NCBI RefSeq assembly: GCF_023195925.1
Contig: NZ_JALPRE010000009.1
Location: 1 to 64,000, forward strand
Length of the DNA: 64,000 nt
Source: Aquimarina acroporae
Lineage (GTDB): Bacteria > Bacteroidota > Bacteroidia > Flavobacteriales > Flavobacteriaceae
Direction: 5' to 3'
How positions within the stretch are numbered: the stretch's first letter is position 1; each line of letters begins with the position of its first letter. The notes beneath the pieces were generated by a model, which was not told the DNA's origin, made no database searches, and was given only the letters and a program-made list of their open reading frames with translations. This document shows, one piece after another, positions 6,224-59,977 of this stretch. The translations under genes and the position numbers were made by a program.

Positions 6224-6297
6224 GCCGATATAGCTCAGCTGGCTAGAGCAGCTGATTTGTAATCAGCAGGTCGTGGGTTCGAGTCCCTCTATCGGCT
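6224..6297 (+). tRNA. tRNA-Thr (anticodon TGT)
   Basis: The 74-nt cloverleaf has acceptor stem GCCGATA/TATCGGC with discriminator T, a D-arm AGCTCAGCTGGCTAGAGC, and an anticodon stem GCTGA/TCAGC with loop TTTGTAA giving anticodon TGT. The T-arm is GTGGGTTCGAGTCCC-like. CCA is not encoded. Confidence 0.96.
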
Positions 6298-50898: not shown

Positions 50899-53106
50899 AT
50901 GAGCTTGAATGAAACTGACTTGCAAGATGCTCTGAAGAAGTATTTTGGGTTTAGTCAATTTAGAGGATTACAGGAAAAGGTAATACAAAGTATTTTAGAA
51001 GCACAAAATACTTTTGTGATCATGCCTACTGGTGGTGGAAAATCCCTATGTTACCAACTACCAGCTTTAATGTGTGAAGGGACAGCTATTGTAGTTTCTC
51101 CACTTATCGCACTAATGAAAAATCAAGTAGATGCCATACGAAGCATCTCTTCCGAAGAAGGAATAGCACATGTTCTTAATTCGTCTCTTAATAAATCGGA
51201 GGTGAAAAAAGTGAAAGGTGATATTACCAACGGAGTTACAAAGCTATTATATGTGGCTCCAGAATCACTTACAAAAGAAGAATATGTAGACTTTCTTAAA
51301 TCTCAAAAAATTTCTTTCTTGGCCGTAGATGAAGCACACTGTATAAGTGAATGGGGTCATGATTTTAGACCAGAATATAGAAATCTTCGGAATATCATAA
51401 AACGAATAGGAGAAGATATTCCTATTATTGGCCTAACCGCTACTGCTACTCCTAAGGTGCAAGAAGATATCCTTAAAAATTTAGGGATGAGCAATGCACA
51501 AACGTTTAAAGCGTCATTTAATCGCCCTAATTTGTTTTACGAAATTAGACCAAAGACAAAAAATGTAGACGCAGATATTACCCGTTTTGTAAAACAAAAT
51601 GGAGGTAAAAGTGGTATTGTATATTGTCTTAGTCGTAAACGTGTTGAAGAATTAGCCCAGACCCTAGAAGTGAATGGGATAAAAGCTGTTCCGTACCATG
51701 CAGGTTTAGATGCCAAAACCAGAGCCAAACACCAGGATATGTTCTTGATGGAAGATGTTGATGTTGTGGTAGCGACAATAGCCTTTGGAATGGGAATAGA
51801 CAAACCAGATGTGCGTTTTGTGATACATCATGATATGCCCAAAAGTATAGAGAGCTACTATCAGGAAACTGGTCGTGCTGGCCGCGACGGAGGAGAAGGG
51901 CATTGTTTGGCATATTACTCTTATAAAGATATTGAAAAGCTTGAAAAATTTATGAGTGGTAAACCTGTGGCCGAACAAGAAATTGGTCACGCTTTACTTC
52001 AGGAAGTAGTGGCTTTTGCAGAAACATCAATATCAAGACGTAAATTCATTTTACATTATTTTGGAGAAGAGTTTGATGAGGTAAATGGCGAAGGAGCAGA
52101 CATGGATGATAATGTTCGAAATCCTAAGAAAAAACACGAAGCCAAAGAAGAAGTAAAACTTTTATTAGAGATAGTTAGTAAAACCGGAGAAATTTATAAG
52201 TCTAGAGATCTTGTAAGTACTCTTATTGGTAAAAGCAATGCATTAATTATTTCACATAAAACCCATGAGCAGGATTTCTTCGGAAATGGAAAAGTAAAAG
52301 ACGATAAATATTGGATGGCTCTAGTGCGACAGGTGTTGGTTGCAGGGTATTTACGTAAAGATATTGAAACCTATGGTGTCATTAGAATAACTGAGGAGGG
52401 TAGGAAGTTTATCGATTCTCCGGTAAGTTTTATGATGACAGAAGATCATATCTATGATGAGACAAGTGATGATACTATAGTGACTGCAGCCAAAGCAGGG
52501 AGTAAAGGCGCTAGCGATGAAAAACTAGTGGGGATGTTAAAAGATCTTAGAAAAGCTGTAGCTAAAAAACTAGGGGTGCCTCCGTTTGTTGTTTTTCAAG
52601 ATCCATCTATTGAAGATATGGCTTTAAAATACCCTGTCTCTATTGAGGAATTAGGAGGTAATATTCATGGCGTAGGAGAAGGAAAGGCAAAAAAATATGG
52701 GAAAGAGTTTGTAGAACTTATCTCAAAATATGTTGATGAAAATGATATAATGCGTCCAGATGATTTTGTGGTTAAAAGTACTGGAGCAAATAGTGGGTTG
52801 AAACTATATATTATTCAAAATGTAGATCGTAAACTTCCTCTTGATGATATTGCTTCTGCAAAAGGGATGGAGATGCCTGAGTTTATTAAGGAAATGGAAG
52901 CTATTGTCTATAGCGGTACAAAGCTGAATATTACTTATTGGATTGATGAAATTTTGGACGAAGATCAACAAGAAGAAATTCATGAATATTTTCTGGAGGC
53001 AGAAAACGATAAAATAGACATAGCCATTGAAGAGTTTGATGGAGATTATGATGATGAAGAGCTGAGACTATATCGAATTAAGTTTATCAGTGAAGTAGCT
53101 AATTAG
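50899..53106 (+). CDS. recQ: ATP-dependent DNA helicase RecQ
   Basis: The 735-residue protein has Walker A MPTGGGKSLCYQLPAL (about 39-54), DEAHCISEWGHDFRPEY (DEAH plus aromatic loop), TATATP, and helicase motifs V/VI with ETGRAGRDG. A RQC zinc/winged-helix region follows, though the four zinc cysteines of E. coli RecQ are not evident (KFILHYFGEEFDEVNG). An HRDC domain lies at about 540-615, and a C-terminal extension to residue 735. It unwinds forked DNA in recombination repair. The zinc-site loss is seen in other Bacteroidota RecQ proteins, as far as I recall. Confidence 0.94.
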   Translation: MSLNETDLQDALKKYFGFSQFRGLQEKVIQSILEAQNTFVIMPTGGGKSLCYQLPALMCEGTAIVVSPLIALMKNQVDAIRSISSEEGIAHVLNSSLNKSEVKKVKGDITNGVTKLLYVAPESLTKEEYVDFLKSQKISFLAVDEAHCISEWGHDFRPEYRNLRNIIKRIGEDIPIIGLTATATPKVQEDILKNLGMSNAQTFKASFNRPNLFYEIRPKTKNVDADITRFVKQNGGKSGIVYCLSRKRVEELAQTLEVNGIKAVPYHAGLDAKTRAKHQDMFLMEDVDVVVATIAFGMGIDKPDVRFVIHHDMPKSIESYYQETGRAGRDGGEGHCLAYYSYKDIEKLEKFMSGKPVAEQEIGHALLQEVVAFAETSISRRKFILHYFGEEFDEVNGEGADMDDNVRNPKKKHEAKEEVKLLLEIVSKTGEIYKSRDLVSTLIGKSNALIISHKTHEQDFFGNGKVKDDKYWMALVRQVLVAGYLRKDIETYGVIRITEEGRKFIDSPVSFMMTEDHIYDETSDDTIVTAAKAGSKGASDEKLVGMLKDLRKAVAKKLGVPPFVVFQDPSIEDMALKYPVSIEELGGNIHGVGEGKAKKYGKEFVELISKYVDENDIMRPDDFVVKSTGANSGLKLYIIQNVDRKLPLDDIASAKGMEMPEFIKEMEAIVYSGTKLNITYWIDEILDEDQQEEIHEYFLEAENDKIDIAIEEFDGDYDDEELRLYRIKFISEVAN

Positions 53107-53127: not shown

Positions 53128-53164
53128 AAAAGGCTTTGAAAATTTTCAAAGCCTTTTATTTTTT
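53128..53164 (+). terminator. Terminator after recQ
   Basis: Palindrome AAAAGGCTTTGAAAA / TTTTCAAAGCCTTTT (53128-53157) with a following T-run. It also separates recQ from the peptide gene ending at 53173. Confidence 0.82.
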
Positions 53165-53172
53165 ACTTCTAT

Positions 53173-53319
53173 TTATTTTTTTGGTTTTTCTGTGGTTATA
53201 GGAATATCTCCAAAGCTAAGACCCATGGTCTCTACAGGCCCATTGTCGTCACCACGATTAGAACCGCCATAAATGGTTTGTATGTTTTGGATTTTGTAAC
53301 ACTTAAAATTTCTTAACAT
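53173..53319 (-). CDS. GG-leader peptide 1 (48 aa), RiPP/bacteriocin-like
   Basis: A 48-residue frame begins MLRNFKCYKIQNIQTIYGG and ends in TTEKPKK. The leader-like first 19 residues end in Gly-Gly (18-19) with hydrophobic residues at the -4 and -7 type positions, the mark of peptides cleaved by C39-type peptidase exporters. The 29-residue core is polar with DDNGP and no Cys. It follows peptide 2 by 36 bp on the same strand, so the two probably form one transcript. Too short for usual ORF calling. The bounds were translated by hand. Confidence 0.72.
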   Translation of the reverse strand: MLRNFKCYKIQNIQTIYGGSNRGDDNGPVETMGLSFGDIPITTEKPKK

Positions 53320-53355
53320 AATTTCTTTTTAAGAGGTTATTATAAATTATTACAA

Positions 53356-53532
53356 TCAAGGGTTTCCGTTTACGCAAATACCATTTCTAGGGAACCAACC
53401 TAGACATAAGCATAATGTGCCATCTATGGAGATTGCTTGGGCACAACCATTACCGGAACCACCATTAATTGACTGTTGCCGGTTCTTGTCTAATTTTTGA
53501 GTTCCTTTGAGATTTAAAACGTTTTTTAACAT
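53356..53532 (-). CDS. GG-leader peptide 2 (58 aa), RiPP/bacteriocin-like
   Basis: A 58-residue frame begins MLKNVLNLKGTQKLDKNRQQ and continues SINGG. This leader type, with a Gly-Gly at residues 24-25 after QxSI, is what I recall in flavobacterial bacteriocin-like precursors. The 33-residue core has four Cys (30, 41, 43, 53) with a CLCLGW run and could form two disulfides or thioethers. The stop is followed after 36 bp by peptide 1. No modifying enzyme is next to it. Confidence 0.8.
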   Translation of the reverse strand: MLKNVLNLKGTQKLDKNRQQSINGGSGNGCAQAISIDGTLCLCLGWFPRNGICVNGNP

Positions 53533-53722
53533 GATATAGGTTTTATGAGTTAGTAATACCTAAAGTTAAACTTCTTAAATGGTTATGTATTCTTCTAGAA
53601 TGTTAATTTTTGGTAATTAATTACTTTTTTATTAATAAGTTCAAAAAGCACTTTGTACTTATTCTCTTTAGCTTACAAGAAGAAAGAATAGTGAATCACT
53701 ATTCTTTCTTCTAGCATAAATC
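53533..53722. other. Leader region between peptide genes
   Basis: 190 bp of A/T-rich DNA contains the long hairpin at 53678-53712 and must hold the promoter of peptides 2 and 1. A TAACTTTA element (minus strand, near 53565) is only a weak -7 match. No further peptide frame was found here. Confidence 0.5.
53678..53712. terminator. 16-bp perfect hairpin after peptide 3
   Basis: AGAAGAAAGAATAGTG (53678-53693) pairs with CACTATTCTTTCTTCT (53697-53712) with a 3-nt loop. It lies 10 bp after the peptide 3 stop on the minus strand. The T-run is imperfect. Confidence 0.72.
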
Positions 53723-53959
53723 TTATTGGCAAGCGACATCAAGAGATAAGCAATTCACCTCTGTTTGTCCACACTCATTGGTCTGTACTATACAATCTTT
53801 TGAAAAACAAGGTAAAGCTGCAGAAGCGGTATCACACTTTACGTCCTGAGAAACGCACTTTACTAAGGAGTTAAAAACACCTCCTTTAACCGATAAGCCT
53901 CCAAGTCTAGAGATTACATTTTTCTTTAAAGATAAATTGTCTAATTTTTTTTTCTTCAT
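53723..53959 (-). CDS. Class I lanthipeptide-like precursor (peptide 3, 78 aa)
   Basis: 78 residues from the ATG at 53959 (the frame also opens at 53983). The leader MKKKKLDNLSLKKNVISRLGG has the Lys-rich start and the LSLKKxxIS motif of Bacteroidota class I lanthipeptide leaders. There are GG pairs at 20-21 and 26-27. The remaining core has seven Cys and many Ser/Thr, so dehydration and lanthionine rings are possible. No LanB, LanC or protease gene is in the window, so it would be an orphan precursor served in trans. Disulfide-rich secreted peptide is the alternative. Confidence 0.8.
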   Translation of the reverse strand: MKKKKLDNLSLKKNVISRLGGLSVKGGVFNSLVKCVSQDVKCDTASAALPCFSKDCIVQTNECGQTEVNCLSLDVACQ

Positions 53960-54142
53960 AATGATAATTTTAGAATAATACATTTCTGATCATTTATAGA
54001 CACTCAGATACTATGTCTAAAAATACGTTCATCAAAAAGCTTATTGTTACTATGGCTTTTCTTTTTTTTGAAAAAATTAACAAATGTTTTATCAGAAAAG
54101 GTATTAAAGGAACTGCAAAGATTCCGTTTTATAGTTCTTTTT

Positions 54143-56863
54143 TTAGAAGAAGAATCGATATATCATAAGGATAAGTAAAACAACTCCAAATCCTAAGAAG
54201 AATATCCATAAATTATTAGATTTAGGGACTAATACTCCAGTATCTCCAATTAATACCAATGATGCCCAATAATGCGGTGATGCTTCCGCATCAGTATTGT
54301 TGTGCAAGTAATCGAGTTTTGCAGTTCGTAAGGCTTCAGATTTGGTTTGTCCTTGGCTTAGATGTTTATAAAAATTAGTAGTGATTGTAGCGGTTGCTTT
54401 GTCATTTGTACTCCATAAGGATGGAATCACTGTGTTGGCACCAGATTTAAAAAAACCTCTGGCTAAACTCATTACACCTTCACCTCGTTTTAACTTTCCT
54501 AATGATGTATTACAAGCGCTAAGTACTACTAATTCTGCGTTATTTTTAATTATATTGAGTTCATCCATAGTTAGTTTGGATTCATGAAATGCAATCCAAG
54601 GAGCAATCGAATCAGATGCATATGCATGCGTTGCCAAGTGTAAAATTTTGTACTCACTGGCTTGTCGCATAAAATTCTTTTTGGTGGCATTTTTTTTAAT
54701 CAATAAGGATCCATCATAAAATGTATTGGCATTATTAATTTCTACTTCACTTTCATATAAATCGGAAAGTTCATTAGAAAAATTTACTGGAGCCACACCT
54801 AGAAACTCTTTTTCCGCTTGTCGAGGAATGGTTGAATTTTCTTGTTGAAAAGATAAAGAATAAGTATGGTTAACCTCAGAATCTTCTATAAGGTACCTTC
54901 CGGTATCCAAATTGGTAACTAACGCTTCGAAGGGAATAAAACCAAGAAAGTGATCTGTAACAATAGTCACTTTTTTATTTTTTATAGGATCACGTATCTC
55001 CGGGGGGAAAAGTATTTTGTATAACTGATTTGCTACTTTTTGATATGAATAAATATCTTCGGCTGTTGTAAATGGAGCTTTTAATTTTTCTCTTAGAGAT
55101 TCAATTTTGTCCAATAATTGTTCATTATTTTTGAGGTTAAAAAGCATTTTTTTGTCATTGGATATATACATTCCATATGCTTCGGGAAGAACTTGAGCAA
55201 CTTTTTCAACCATAATATATTCGATAATTACTTCATCACTTTTAAGCTTTATTTCCGATAAAGGAATTATTTTGGGATTGGAGATCGAAGAAAAATAAGT
55301 TGGGTATTGTGATGAAAGTGAATCTTTAAAAAGCTGTAGGTTATTTTTTTGTCCCAATAAAATTTCAGAAATAGAATCTTTTAGAGTCTCATTTGTTTCA
55401 TAAAGTAATTTTCGAAGCCTAACAATTTCGGTTTCTATTTTAGTTTCTTGTTCAAGAATATTAATGGGAATATCAATTTTGTTCTTAGTAACTTCTTGAG
55501 TTAATAGTAATGCTTTGCTTTTTTCCATAAAATAGAAAGCATCTTTATGGTTTTTCAAATGAATACATGTTTCGATGCCCATAATATAAATTTGCGATGC
55601 CAAACTTCTCCATAATAACTTTGTCTGATTTGAAATGTCATTTTGTAATAATAGATCTATAAGTTCATCCCCTTTATATGTTGTTCGAATGGCTTCATTA
55701 AAATAGATAGATTCTTTTTTCGATTTTCCAAGTTCAATCCATGTTCTTAGTTTTCGTTTAATGAGTTCTAAAAAACTCACTTTATCTGATATTATTTTTA
55801 ATTCATCCTTTTCAGGCAGCCAATAAATATTGCTTATTTTTTTATTGAATAATAAGGAAAATGAATTCGAGAATTTTTCATGTGCCTTAATGTAATTTTT
55901 TGAATATAAGTCTTTTATGCCTAGTCCGAAAAATATATTATGTTTAAATGAAGGATTATGATTAGAGTATTTTAGTGCTTGTTGAAAGTAATATCCTGAC
56001 AAAGTGGTGTCGGTTTCAATATGTGTAAGCCCTAAATTATAATATATTCTTGGAAGTTTTTCTTTAATGTTTAAATCATGGAGTATTTTTAGTGCTTTGG
56101 AATAACATTCAATACATTTGTTTAAATCTTTGGTTTTAACCCCTTCACAATAGAGGTTTCCAAGATTATTATAAATTAAATATGAATTGTAGAGGTTAGA
56201 TTTAGGTTGTTTTTTTAGTAAGCTTTCAGCCTTTTTTAAATGAAGGATAGCTTTTTTTGAACTTTCTTCAGATCTAATGTAACCATAGGTTGAAGCAATA
56301 TATATATTACCGTCTATAAGTCTTCCCTTTTGAATATCACTTTTACTATAATTTTGTAATGATTTTTGTTGATAGTCAATTGAAGTATGATAATCTCCCA
56401 AAATACTGTAGCATTCACCTATAATTGCGTACGCACGACCTCTTAAGAAATCAGTGCCACCCAGACCTAGCATTTTTTTGAAATAAAATATAGCTACACT
56501 ATAGTTTTTAAGTCTTTTGTTATAAATAGCATAGTTAAAATAACTTCTTTTTAAGAGTTCAATATTGTAGGGTTCGGCTTTTTCTCTAGCTTCATAAGCT
56601 ATTTTAATAATATCTATAGCTTTATTCCATTTTTGCTCTTTATGAATCCATTTTCCTAATTGATGTGCATCATGTCCTAACTGGGTAAAATCCTCATTTT
56701 TTTCATATAAACTAAAAAGTTCAAGATATAAATAAAGTTTCTCATAATCAGAACCATTAAGCTGATGAATGGAATCAAGTTTAAACGAAATTTCCTGACC
56801 TCTAATGCAAGAGATCAGGAATAAGAAAGACAAAATTAATATGATATTATGGTTTTTGTTCAA
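54143..56863 (-). CDS. TPR-CHAT domain protein, envelope-anchored
   Basis: The 906-residue protein has a signal peptide with a possible lipobox (LISC, Cys 19). TPR repeats span about 40-480, a coiled segment about 480-520, and a CHAT peptidase domain about 560-875. The caspase-like catalytic pair is in HLATHAYASD and VVLSACNTSLGK. A C-terminal helix (WIFFLGFGVVLLILMIYRF) ends the protein, so it is anchored at both ends or tail-anchored, and the peptidase would face the periplasm. It is 3 bp after the lipoprotein gene and divergent from a sigma/anti-sigma pair. Substrate unknown. Confidence 0.9.
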   Translation of the reverse strand: MNKNHNIILILSFLFLISCIRGQEISFKLDSIHQLNGSDYEKLYLYLELFSLYEKNEDFTQLGHDAHQLGKWIHKEQKWNKAIDIIKIAYEAREKAEPYNIELLKRSYFNYAIYNKRLKNYSVAIFYFKKMLGLGGTDFLRGRAYAIIGECYSILGDYHTSIDYQQKSLQNYSKSDIQKGRLIDGNIYIASTYGYIRSEESSKKAILHLKKAESLLKKQPKSNLYNSYLIYNNLGNLYCEGVKTKDLNKCIECYSKALKILHDLNIKEKLPRIYYNLGLTHIETDTTLSGYYFQQALKYSNHNPSFKHNIFFGLGIKDLYSKNYIKAHEKFSNSFSLLFNKKISNIYWLPEKDELKIISDKVSFLELIKRKLRTWIELGKSKKESIYFNEAIRTTYKGDELIDLLLQNDISNQTKLLWRSLASQIYIMGIETCIHLKNHKDAFYFMEKSKALLLTQEVTKNKIDIPINILEQETKIETEIVRLRKLLYETNETLKDSISEILLGQKNNLQLFKDSLSSQYPTYFSSISNPKIIPLSEIKLKSDEVIIEYIMVEKVAQVLPEAYGMYISNDKKMLFNLKNNEQLLDKIESLREKLKAPFTTAEDIYSYQKVANQLYKILFPPEIRDPIKNKKVTIVTDHFLGFIPFEALVTNLDTGRYLIEDSEVNHTYSLSFQQENSTIPRQAEKEFLGVAPVNFSNELSDLYESEVEINNANTFYDGSLLIKKNATKKNFMRQASEYKILHLATHAYASDSIAPWIAFHESKLTMDELNIIKNNAELVVLSACNTSLGKLKRGEGVMSLARGFFKSGANTVIPSLWSTNDKATATITTNFYKHLSQGQTKSEALRTAKLDYLHNNTDAEASPHYWASLVLIGDTGVLVPKSNNLWIFFLGFGVVLLILMIYRFFF

Positions 56864-56866
56864 ACT

Positions 56867-57436
56867 TTAGTTTTCGTTAAGTAGAAGCCCAACAGATTTT
56901 TTAATTTCGCTACAAGAAAGGTCAGAGGCTAAACCCCATCCTTTGGCCCCATTGCATATTCTTCCGCAAGCAGGATCTTCATCTTCATTATCAGATAAAT
57001 TAGAAGTTTCTGCAGCATGAGTTTTTGAACCTTCAGATTTAAGATTGTCGATAGGAGAACAGGCAAAAATACAATTATCAGTGGGGATTTCATTGCAAGG
57101 GACGTACCATTCATAAACATCGTTACAATATGGGAATGTACTATACATAATAGAGCTGAATTTAAATTTTCTAGCGAATATAGTATAGTCTATATGATCT
57201 TCTATTGTTGAATATTTTGGAAATACTACATAGATTTTGGTAAAGCATGAGGATGTATTCGATGATTCAGGAGATGCTTTAAGTAAACTTTGATTGTCGA
57301 TCAAATCGTCTGCATTAAGAAAGTCATCGGGTATAATATTTTCTGATTTTTCGTTATACACTTCTTCTTTTGTTGAGCAGCTTTGTATTCCAATTGTAAA
57401 GACTGCCACTACCAATAGTAACGTGATTTTTTTCAT
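56867..57436 (-). CDS. Cysteine-rich lipoprotein of CHAT operon
   Basis: The 189-residue protein has lipobox IQSC (Cys 20). An acidic linker is followed by a domain with eight further cysteines (SSCF, FPYCND, VPCNE, DNCIFACS, PACGRICNG, LSCSE), which suggests a disulfide-bonded periplasmic or surface protein. I do not recognise the family. It ends 3 bp before the CHAT gene and is transcribed first, so it is likely a partner, inhibitor or substrate of the CHAT protease. Confidence 0.75.
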   Translation of the reverse strand: MKKITLLLVVAVFTIGIQSCSTKEEVYNEKSENIIPDDFLNADDLIDNQSLLKASPESSNTSSCFTKIYVVFPKYSTIEDHIDYTIFARKFKFSSIMYSTFPYCNDVYEWYVPCNEIPTDNCIFACSPIDNLKSEGSKTHAAETSNLSDNEDEDPACGRICNGAKGWGLASDLSCSEIKKSVGLLLNEN

Positions 57437-57535
57437 TTTTAATTTTTTTTGTTTTCATTATTCATTAGTATATTCCCCAAACCTGACAAATGTTACCATG
57501 TAAAAATAAAAAAATAAAAAGTTAAAGATATTTTA

Positions 57536-58102
57536 ATGTCGATAAACGAAAATGATCAGCTAAAACTGCTTGTTTCTGGAGATAGAAATGTCATACAAGA
57601 TTTGTATCTTAAGGAGTTTCCTAAAATAAAAAGTTTTGTTCTAAATAATAATGGTACTTTGAGTGATGCAGAAGATATCTTTCAGAAAGCGTTATTACAA
57701 TTAATCGCCAGATATCGGGTAAAAACCTTTGTTGTTGAAGGTTCGTTTAGGGCATATTTCTATTCCGCTTGTAGAAATTTATGGCGTAGAGAACTAAATA
57801 AACAAAAATTAATAGTAACAAACGATAAGGTCATAGAACGTAATAAAGCGACCGAGGACATGATCATGGCAACTTTGGAACAAGAAAAATGGGAATTGTT
57901 TCAGGAAAAACTAGCCGAATTATCGGATAATTGTAAACAATTATTACAATTGTTTTTTAAGAAAGTACCTTATAAAAAGATCACAGAAGAACTAGGATAT
58001 AATAGTGATAATGTAGTACGGCAGCGTATTTTTAATTGTAAATCACAGTTAACAAAATTGATTAAAAAAGATAACAGATATAAAAACATGAAAGGATTAT
58101 GA
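57536..58102 (+). CDS. ECF-type sigma-70 family sigma factor
   Basis: The 188-residue protein has a sigma region 2 (about 15-85: DAEDIFQKALLQLI, FRAYFYSACRNLWRRELNK) and a region 4 HTH (about 118-180: LSDNCKQLLQLFFKKVPYKK, YNSDNVVRQRIFNCK). The family normally senses through a membrane partner, and the next gene, overlapping by 4 bp, encodes one. It is divergent from the CHAT operon with 99 bp between, so that operon is its first candidate target. Confidence 0.9.
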   Translation: MSINENDQLKLLVSGDRNVIQDLYLKEFPKIKSFVLNNNGTLSDAEDIFQKALLQLIARYRVKTFVVEGSFRAYFYSACRNLWRRELNKQKLIVTNDKVIERNKATEDMIMATLEQEKWELFQEKLAELSDNCKQLLQLFFKKVPYKKITEELGYNSDNVVRQRIFNCKSQLTKLIKKDNRYKNMKGL

Positions 58103-58896
58103 AGGATTATCCTATAGAAATTGATGATTACCTGAATGGTAAGATGTCAATATTAGAACAGCAAATGTTCGAGGAGAAACTTCGTACAGATGCTATACTC
58201 GCAAAGGAATTTAAATTACAAAAAGAGATGCTGGCTGTTTATGGAGGTAAAGATTGGGTAGAAGGAGATAAAAATATATTAAAGACAGATCGGGCAAAAC
58301 AACTACGGTCGTTTTTTCAAAGTGAAGAAGCTTCAGATTTAAAAGTTACTATACAAGCCGTAGTTACTGGCAATCGAAAGAATGTAAATCATAAAAAGCT
58401 TTGGAGTATTGGCATTGCAGCAACTGTTGTCATACTGTTTATGGTTAGTTTATTTGTTTTTAAAGATAATAGCTATGATGATTTATATGGGACTTATATC
58501 CATTTAGATGAAATCCCTTCTTTAGTAACTAGAGGAAATCGTACTCATAGCTTATTGGAAAAGGCGCAGTTATTGTTTGAAGAAAAAGAATATGATAGGG
58601 CGGTACAGTTTTTTTCAGAATATCACCAAAAAGAAACTACAATTAACCCTCTTAGTTACATTTATAATGGAATTGCATATATCGAACTTGGAAAATTTGA
58701 TAATGCACTAGAGCAGTTTGAGCTTCTTGAACAATCAAAGACATTACAAGCTAAAAAAGCAAATTGGTATAAAGCTTTAGTGTTTTTAAAACAAAAGAAT
58801 AAAGTAGCTCTTAAAAGTATTTTGCAGACTATTATATCCGACAATAGTAATTATAAATATACAGAAGCTAAAGAAATATTAGAAGTTATAGATTAA
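58099..58896 (+). CDS. Membrane TPR protein, anti-sigma-like
   Basis: The 265-residue protein has a cytoplasmic N-terminal domain with the pattern YPIEIDDYLNGKMSILEQQM, followed by FEEKL (typical of small anti-sigma heads). One transmembrane helix (about 95-115: SIGIAATVVILFMVSLFVF) leads into a periplasmic TPR region (about 150-260: AQLLFEEKEYDRAVQFFSEY). No zinc motif is present. It overlaps the sigma gene by 4 bp (ATGA), so it is most likely its regulator. Confidence 0.8.
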   Translation: MKDYPIEIDDYLNGKMSILEQQMFEEKLRTDAILAKEFKLQKEMLAVYGGKDWVEGDKNILKTDRAKQLRSFFQSEEASDLKVTIQAVVTGNRKNVNHKKLWSIGIAATVVILFMVSLFVFKDNSYDDLYGTYIHLDEIPSLVTRGNRTHSLLEKAQLLFEEKEYDRAVQFFSEYHQKETTINPLSYIYNGIAYIELGKFDNALEQFELLEQSKTLQAKKANWYKALVFLKQKNKVALKSILQTIISDNSNYKYTEAKEILEVID

Positions 58897-59044: not shown

Positions 59045-59977
59045 ATGCAAGACGGATTATACGCAAAATTTAAAACTAATAAAGGGGATATTGTTGTAAA
59101 TCTCGAATATAAAAAAACACCAGGGACAGTAGGTAATTTTGTTGGACTTGCCGAAGGGAATCTGGACAACCAAGCAATTCCTCAAGGAAAACCTTATTAT
59201 AATGGGTTGAAATTTCATAGAGTAATTGCAGATTTTATGATTCAAGGAGGAGATCCACAAGGAACTGGTGCTGGAGGCCCAGGATACCAATTTGACGATG
59301 AAATTCATCCAGACCTTAAACATGATGGACCCGGTGTTTTGTCTATGGCAAATGCAGGTCCAGGTACCAACGGTAGCCAGTTTTTTATTACACATGTTGA
59401 AACTCCTTGGCTAGATGGTAAGCATACTGTTTTTGGTAAAGTAGTAGAAGGACAAGATATCGTAGATGCCGTGGCTCAAGGAGACGAAATCAAAGAGTTG
59501 GAAATTGTTAGAGTAGGAGAAGAAGCAGAAAAGTTTAATGCTGTAGAAACTTTTAGACAATTTAATGGTGCTAAAGCAGAACGTGAAGCTGCTGCAAAAA
59601 AGAAAGCAGAAGAGCTATTGGAAGAGCTGGCTGCAGGTTTTGATAAAACAGATAGTGGTCTCCGTTATAAAATAATTCAAAAAGGAGACGGGGTTAAAGC
59701 AGAGAAAGGAGCAACAGTATCAGTGCATTACAAAGGAAGTTTGCCTGATGGCACGGTATTTGACTCTTCATATAAAAGAAATCAGCCTATTGACTTCCCT
59801 TTAGGGATGGGACAAGTAATTCCAGGATGGGATGAAGGAATTGCATTGTTACAAGTAGGAGATAAAGCTCGTCTAGTTATTCCATCTTATTTGGGATATG
59901 GAGAAAGAGGAGCTGGAGGAGTAATTCCACCAAATGCGACACTTATTTTCGATGTTGAATTGGTGAATGTGAAATAA
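59045..59977 (+). CDS. Cyclophilin-FKBP fusion peptidylprolyl isomerase
   Basis: The 310-residue protein joins a cyclophilin domain (about 8-160: [42 protein letters not shown]) to a C-terminal FKBP domain (about 205-310: [57 protein letters not shown]). Both catalyse cis/trans proline isomerisation, with different active sites. There is no signal peptide, so it is cytoplasmic. Linker 165-200 is a charged helix. The fusion is known in some Bacteroidota; independent activity of both halves is an inference from conserved residues. Confidence 0.95.

Follow-up and report, generated by a model that had tools for sequence, protein, structure and literature searches.

A predicted H-type pseudoknot upstream of Gly-Gly peptide precursors in a variable recQ-linked island of Aquimarina

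The DNA analyzed here (the window) comprises 64,000 nucleotides of an Aquimarina acroporae contig (NZ_JALPRE010000009.1, positions 1 to 64,000). Three small ORFs on its minus strand, which a sequence-only reading had described as precursor-like peptides with double-glycine leaders, were confirmed at 53173-53319 (peptide 1, 48 aa), 53356-53532 (peptide 2, 58 aa) and 53723-53959 (peptide 3, 78 aa). Translation also bore out the Gly-Gly pairs reported at residues 18-19 of peptide 1 and 24-25 of peptide 2, as well as the core cysteine numbers (0, 4 and 7, respectively). Peptide 1 belongs to a small family with the pattern MLxxFK..IKN..IYGG and peptide 2 to the MLKNIL...QKSINGG family, while peptide 3 looks like a precursor of class I lanthipeptide type, with a leader (residues 1-27) ending in KGG and a core of 51 aa; an alternative in-frame ATG upstream would extend it to 86 aa. 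A terminator-like inverted repeat read from the sequence directly follows peptide 3 (53679..53710, minus strand), and similar repeats were seen by eye downstream of 12 of 14 copies of this gene. Peptides 2 and 1 are separated by 36 nt and are probably carried on one transcript, ending at a second terminator-like repeat with a T run (53128..53156, minus strand; also read from the sequence).

The three ORFs are placed in a variable island, whose conserved left border is recQ (50899..53106, plus strand) and whose conserved right border is a peptidyl-prolyl isomerase-like gene, named by reading its sequence (59045..59977, plus strand). Between peptide 3 and the right border there is a gene for a TPR-CHAT caspase-like protein with a signal-peptide-like N-terminus, a C-terminal hydrophobic segment and the motifs LHLATH and SACNT (54143..56863, minus strand). 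It is preceded by a lipoprotein-like gene, the first of a probable CHAT operon (56867..57436, minus strand), and by a conserved promoter-like sequence, GTAACATTT...GGGGAATATACTAAT, of that operon (57464..57496, minus strand). An ECF sigma factor (57536..58102, plus strand; TIGR02937, 5.6e-17) is followed by a TPR-repeat protein with a hydrophobic segment, by its position and the look of its sequence a probable anti-sigma partner (58099..58896, plus strand). Upstream of peptide 3 lie a 39-nt element, predicted to fold as an H-type pseudoknot (53982..54020, minus strand, 25 nt before the ATG), and, upstream of that, a promoter-like GTAACA-N14-GAACGT sequence of putative ECF type (54025..54050, minus strand).

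The frames of all three peptides are conserved in relatives beyond chance. In close pairs dN was lower than dS, both for peptide 3 (dN and dS of 0.02 and 0.12 for L044/L045, 0.01 and 0.04 for L050/L051, and 0.09 and 0.21 for L046/L052) and for peptide 2 (0.01 and 0.19 for L045/L047; 0.18 and 1.8 for the window copy against L045). The dS values of the window peptide 3 against its relatives, 1.0-2.0, are close to saturation, and the sole dS value obtained for peptide 1 is saturated. Judged on this evidence from sequence comparison, all three ORFs are real, peptide 1 being the weakest case of the three. At E ≤ 0.1, its relatives were detected in 3 of the other 65 genus genomes (best 5.8e-7), namely in G003 (47% identical) and, more weakly, in G004 and G049. 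A further one, L097, was found by blastp (E 0.078). The five sequences aligned, two of which come from the recQ site (L096 and L097), all keep Gly-Gly 18-19.

A search of 66 genus genomes with peptide 3 gave matches at E ≤ 0.001 in 18, and 14 of these, including the window's own genome, carry a full-length copy (the match in G065 bore a flag for an internal stop, but L053 shows an intact 75-aa frame). All 14 full-length loci lie at most 7 kb from recQ, and in 13 of them a TPR-CHAT gene was present in the stretches read, the exception being L042. The alignment of the 14 copies contains 16 invariant columns, including G26, G27, C35, C56 and C70. The Gly-Gly at residues 20-21, previously proposed to end the leader, is present in the window copy; it was rejected as the cleavage site because it is unconserved in the alignment, where the invariant pair is G26-G27 (14/14), and therefore the core would begin at residue 28. 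The leader thus defined is MKKKKLDNLSLKKNVISRLGGLSVKGG.

The suggested class I lanthipeptide leader type of peptide 3 gained support from model NF038153 (lant_leader_L1a), which matched all 14 family members at E ≤ 1 (best 3.6e-5), with the window copy, at 16.5 bits, below the curated cut-off of 22 bits. The elgicin/penisin lantibiotic family (NF033457) was tried and rejected (16.8 bits against a cut-off of 40; 1/14 members at E ≤ 1). In a wider sample, the peptide 3 profile gave matches at E ≤ 1e-6 in 12 of 397 genomes besides the window's own, and the 13 named records that it matched are from Aquimarina (12) and Lacinutrix (1). Peptide 3 is classed as a probable precursor of the class I lanthipeptide leader type, related to the L1a leader family, and does not call for the suggested new peptide family. 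Two of the outcomes named beforehand as refuting, unconserved frames and the lack of any leader match, did not arise for peptide 3. Peptide 3 resembles the Bacteroidota class I lanthipeptide precursors in its leader pattern, Gly-Gly and Ser/Thr- and Cys-containing core, and some of its relatives adjoin LanC or LanB/LanC genes. It differs from them in having no enzymes in the window, a pseudoknot leader and an ECF/CHAT island as its setting. Nearly one quarter of class I LanCs are reported from Bacteroidetes, and the pinensins are given as the sole isolated example from the phylum (PMC7268733).

The absence of maturation enzymes from the window, as originally noted, was upheld: no LanB, LanC or C39 match was found on its contig, and no radical SAM enzyme was recognized among 40 further window proteins (a subset of the window ORFs) scanned with Pfam at E ≤ 1e-8. 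The remainder of the window's own genome (G000; 5.18 Mb) does contain candidates, namely a single LanB (a LanB-N match on contig C3), three LanC matches (on C3, C11 and C20) and six C39 matches, five of them in frames of 710-740 aa. Orphan precursors matured in trans, as had been proposed, are therefore plausible, and for peptide 3 in particular such maturation by enzymes encoded elsewhere would be plausible from the gene content. Proteases encoded outside lanthipeptide clusters have been described (PMC8960859). Of the 66 genus genomes, 50 have LanB. It is present in all 14 genomes with peptide 3 and in 34 of the other 44 good ones, a difference without significance (p 0.098). The own genome also contains 11 L1a leader matches, six of them above the cut-off. 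Tandem L1a-type precursors occur in it at L056:2215-2676 and L039:1501-2013, on contigs without LanB/LanC matches, and these lack the pseudoknot element.

We also considered that peptide 3 might be a decaying relic at a locus that has lost LanB and LanC, so that the precursor is no longer matured. This is improbable, even though neither enzyme is encoded in the window while LanC is found at the site in 5 of 14 peptide 3 loci (L042, L044, L045, L050 and L051), one of which, L042, has LanB as well (both LanB-N and LanB-C), and even though another species has a short broken precursor with the element (L088:13145). The frame, the pseudoknot and the terminator-like repeat are all intact in the window, together with the invariant leader positions and the seven cysteines. 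Moreover, 8 of the 13 relatives have kept the frame without LanB or LanC in the stretch read, and both enzymes are present elsewhere in the genome.

Peptide 2 represents a different and much larger family, with the pattern MLKNILxxxGVQxLxKxxQKxIxGG. Of the 66 genus genomes, 52 contain matches to it (10 in the window's own genome, and a maximum of 52 in one genome), so that for this peptide, too, a new family need not be invoked: it is a member of a large family scattered throughout the genus. The window peptide 2 had no family match with the bacteriocin-like leader model NF047798, which matched 4 of 22 sequences of the peptide 2 alignment at E ≤ 1 (best 0.017). The peptide 2 family is present in three genomes without a LanB match (29 members in G054, 5 in G012 and 4 in G022, which is 55% complete), and LanB is therefore not the general partner of that family.

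Another candidate partner is a C39-like/VKOR/thioredoxin fusion protein, the own-genome copy of which scored just below the cut-offs for C39 and thioredoxin. At fusion loci (L063:1447-3036 and L176-L205), peptide 2 family ORFs were present in the fetched flanks of 14 out of 30, mostly downstream and on the same strand (by eye), compared to about 2 of 30 expected by arithmetic from the density on contig G064:C1, where a looser threshold finds 14 family ORFs in 0.8 Mb. A VKOR match was found in 52 of 52 genomes positive for the peptide 2 family and in 2 of 14 negatives, although these co-occurrence counts are confounded by descent, the association being largely that of one divergent clade. Of 30 fusion proteins, 24 have no cysteine within the first 140 residues, which suggests that the C39-like part may bind the leader without cutting it. 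By description, peptide 2, with its Gly-Gly leader and four core cysteines, resembles the bacteroidetocins, Gly-Gly peptides for which a double-glycine peptidase transporter has been implicated together with a thiol oxidoreductase (PMC6671954). The candidate oxidoreductase here differs in being the fusion protein, which is unlinked to the window peptide 2.

As far as contigs permitted, the interval between recQ and the peptidyl-prolyl isomerase-like gene was inspected across the genus genomes. Many species have almost nothing in it; others carry peptide genes there, or LanB/LanC, the ECF/TPR/lipoprotein/CHAT module, LytTR regulators or a secreted-looking protein of 401 aa. The secreted-looking protein of approximately 401 aa recurs at the recQ site (L042:1585-2790, L043-L045, L047, L048, L050, L051, L082, L083, L095 and others), and its L042 copy had no Pfam match above the cut-off. 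By eye, an ORF of the peptide 2 or peptide 3 family was found in 17 of 17 CHAT loci and in 8 of the 28 CHAT-free intervals for which both borders were seen (Fisher test, which ignores descent, 1.1e-6).

The CHAT proteins over 450 aa all carry the His and Cys motifs (21/21). A search of solved structures by sequence with the island protein returned only TPR proteins, and its AlphaFold model, built from the single sequence, was poor (mean pLDDT 42.1). In type III-E systems, a TPR-CHAT protease cuts Csx30, an inhibitor of an ECF-like sigma factor (PMC10028731). The island resembles this arrangement in that an ECF sigma factor has a TPR-CHAT protein carrying His/Cys motifs in its vicinity. It differs in that no CRISPR effector (gRAMP/Cas7-11) was recognized among the window proteins scanned, and in that its CHAT protein looks, by eye, exported and membrane-anchored. 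The precedent of Csx30 cleavage, the conserved motifs and the constant company of peptides at CHAT loci raise the possibility that the peptides are substrates or signals of the TPR-CHAT protein and the ECF sigma circuit, instead of RiPP products. We regard this as unlikely, since a peptide 3 relative is accompanied by LanB/LanC and not by CHAT in the stretches read (L042, L128), CHAT-free intervals hold such peptides as well, and the peptide 2 family occurs at many other sites.

Transcription of the island genes may depend on its own sigma factor. The upstream regions of the lipoprotein genes contain a loose GTAACA-N20..30-TAAT pattern in 19 of 21 cases and a stricter one in 18 of 21. GTAACA was also enriched upstream of peptide ORFs at recQ sites (11/40, compared to 1.1 in shuffled sequences), and was not enriched upstream of peptides in later-fetched loci (2/80 and 2.4, respectively), so the promoter appears to be local. 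Relative to the pseudoknot element, TAACA starts 34-30 nt before it in 14 of 48 cases (0.86 in shuffled sequences, maximum 4; the range was set after seeing the data), and anywhere within the preceding 50 nt in 26 of 48 (7.6 shuffled), while an earlier range, one base short of the main cluster, gave 3 of 48 (1.8). From these patterns we infer a putative ECF-type promoter that would be read by the sigma factor of the island.

The element itself was recognized as a block of the form AGACA-L1-S2-G-TGTCT-L3-S2' upstream of all 14 peptide 3 copies and of 12 of 21 inspected peptide 2-type genes. Stem 1 (S1) is formed by AGACA and TGTCT, and stem 2 (S2) pairs the bases before TGTCT with those after it, which makes the predicted fold an H-type pseudoknot. 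In the window, S1 pairs 54018-54014 with 54002-53998 (AGACA:TGTCT), and S2 pairs 54008-54004 with 53989-53985 (TCTGA:TCAGA), all on the minus strand; the copy scores 44.1 bits with the element model, in which it was included. The window peptide 2 has no intact pseudoknot upstream, and peptide 1 likewise lacks the element. Nested folding of the leader RNA of the window peptide 3 gave no support (z -1.13), the program used being unable to score pseudoknots.

Covariation was examined in several sets of upstream sequences. The first alignment (A5) contained 26 of 35 inspected upstreams (14 of peptide 3 and 12 of 21 of peptide 2), the nine dropped peptide 2 ones being without an intact motif. In its 25 distinct sequences, 96.0% of cells were paired, compared to 26-51% in slid versions, and 24 cells were doubly changed, compared to 9.0 in shuffled alignments, with none of 500 shuffles reaching 24. 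Stem 1 accounted for a single doubly changed cell, and one of the five measures, further pair types, showed no excess (10 vs. 10.1 shuffled). The second set was picked by S1 and TAA only. This anchor identified 61 unique places, after de-duplication by sequence context of L068-L077 and L079 (apparent copies of G loci), and 48 of them precede Gly-Gly-like ORFs. Among the 13 that do not by rule, several are, judged by eye, elements read on the opposite strand or precursors that the rule had missed, and others are chance. Although S2 had not been used in picking the 48 elements, it was complete in 45, compared to a mean of 22.3 and a maximum of 30 with shuffled partners.

When 179 distinct precursor upstreams were searched for H-type pseudoknots of any sequence, 67 scored at least 13, compared to 1, 0, 4 and 2 in four dinucleotide shuffles. 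Alternative paired sequences of stem 1 were encountered in this way (AGGCA:TGCCT, AGACG:CGTCT, AGATA:TATCT, GTGGA:TCCAC and AGCTC:GAGCT). From the 179 upstreams, 54 elements were selected on the basis of their pairing and a distance of 20-36 nt (alignment A6). In these, 9 of 10 pairs change on both sides and 64 cells are doubly changed compared to 14.4, figures that the selection favors. Stem 2 lies 25-33 nt before the ATG, with a mean of 28.1 and an sd of 2.0, where 20-36 nt was allowed. As both stems covary beyond shuffles, the existence of the predicted pseudoknot is well supported by sequence comparison.

The repeat upstream of the peptides could in principle be a DNA operator, with two overlapping dyads bound by a regulator, and not an RNA fold. 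S1 is mostly invariant (AGACA/TGTCT in 44 of 54 elements), as would be expected of an operator, and LytTR response regulators are present at some sites. S2, however, occurs in 23 pair combinations among the 54 elements and almost all pairs vary on both sides (in rows partly chosen for pairing), the spacing to the ATG is tight while TAACA lies near -32 or -46 before the element or is absent, and the element is directional, with TAAA conserved in L3. For these reasons an operator is quite unlikely. Two other sequences were observed near precursors: a palindrome-like TTCTTGCAAG immediately before the pseudoknot of some off-island precursors (upstreams of L171, L172 and L192), and a distinct conserved block, CACACACTCACTC, upstream of three others (L196, L198 and L204).

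The specificity of the element was assessed in 1.6 Mb of contiguous DNA, consisting of 0.8 Mb of G064:C1, chosen because its genome is rich in peptide 2 matches, and 0.8 Mb of G000:C23, using a model (R1) with stem 1 as its only structure. Ten matches were obtained at E ≤ 1. The six with at least 21.4 bits are all from G064 and all precede Gly-Gly precursor ORFs, compared to 0 of 4 matches below 20 bits; the 21-bit line was set after the hits had been seen, and five of the six above it reach E < 0.01. The model had been built with one of these six; as four stand in one row within approximately 6 kb of recQ, the independent places number three. The row, located on the 5' side of recQ in G064, consists of four precursors, each with its own element (L209:4726-6470). 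The S1 anchors by themselves were only weakly enriched in contiguous DNA (5 compared to 0-3 in controls for G064:C1; 0 compared to 0-5 for G000:C23). The S1 sequence alone is thus unspecific, and the case for the element rests on S2, the spacing and the model. A wider anchor allowing AGATA was rejected as being at chance level in contiguous DNA (18 vs. 17.7 and 13 vs. 13.7 shuffled).

Among 46 recQ-flank loci there were 13 matches at E ≤ 0.00014 (11 of them in the model). Of these, 12 precede an intact precursor ORF, the remaining one being that before the broken precursor in L088; a fourteenth match, of 16.1 bits, is not followed by a precursor. In 36 sources from the own genome and other genera, the good matches were the window, a precursor on C4 of the own genome (L033) and a Lacinutrix record (L067). 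The first two of these had been included in the model; one further match, of 15.8 bits, was chance-like. No match was found in 11 loci of other family genomes (L135-L145). Two precursors alone have the element among the own-genome sources examined. So far, then, the element is mainly a feature at the level of the genus, and most of the own-genome precursors examined are without it.

At the gathering cut-off, no Rfam 15 family matched the element in the whole window or in ten element-bearing loci, the sole match in the window being a tRNA gene (6224-6297), and permissive thresholds gave only poor, chance-like matches at the AGACA element. No description of such a pseudoknot before RiPP precursors was found in the literature, which is a weak absence, subscription papers being mostly outside the search. 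The most similar known element is DUF805b RNA (RF02914), which is similarly short at about 35 nt, stands before small precursor ORFs and, by eye, has an H-type pseudoknot, but differs from the AGACA element in sequence and stem lengths; the window element had no score above the RF02914 gathering cut-off. No paper on a DUF805 RNA motif was found, an absence that is weak for the same reason.

The lanthipeptide-type precursor beside LanB/LanC on contig C3 of the own genome is preceded by a DUF805b RNA (L054:9730-9764; 47.9 bits vs. 35.6). Besides this one, DUF805b was found before precursors as an Rfam match in L230 and as a pattern match in L145, L022 and L026. Overall, the DUF805b pattern stands before small ORFs at 7 of 7 distinct places (5 Gly-Gly and 2 Ala-Gly), in loci that were mostly fetched for leader peptides and are biased accordingly; the Rfam matches fall at two of these places, in four records. 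Two different small RNAs thus precede RiPP-type precursors. Tentatively, and with less than even confidence, we propose that the AGACA pseudoknot may be a new riboswitch-like class, through which one shared signal (a ligand, a protein or the state of the ribosome) would jointly switch dozens of scattered Gly-Gly precursors that differ in their leaders, as a post-transcriptional regulon of orphan RiPPs, with DUF805b RNA as a second class of similar role and seemingly unrelated origin.

Taken together, we consider it fairly probable that the locus is a variable RiPP island, between recQ and the peptidyl-prolyl isomerase-like gene, that combines peptides matured in trans, sigma-driven genes and a pseudoknot regulon. 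Peptide 3 would be dehydrated and cyclized in trans by the single LanB of the genome and one of the three LanC proteins. Cleavage after Gly-27 and export through an unlinked C39 ABC exporter would follow. Peptide 2 would be cleaved likewise, its disulfides probably being formed via the C39-like/VKOR/thioredoxin fusion protein. The sigma factor of the island would transcribe the lipoprotein-CHAT genes and some of the peptides. The pseudoknot may tune the translation start or mRNA stability, by which the scattered precursors would constitute one post-transcriptional regulon.

The earlier observation is thus largely borne out and its interpretation in part; the pseudoknot, the promoter-like sequence and the ECF sigma/TPR-CHAT island had not been noticed in it. 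The peptides belong to known kinds and by themselves are of ordinary interest; the pseudoknot is the part with real novelty. Aquimarina has been named as rich in biosynthetic clusters (PMC10734526). Orphan RiPP precursors are hard to tie to enzymes and to the conditions of their expression. A shared 5' RNA element, if confirmed, would provide a cluster-independent handle, finding precursors that leader models miss and showing which of them are co-controlled, and would raise the question of what signal is read.
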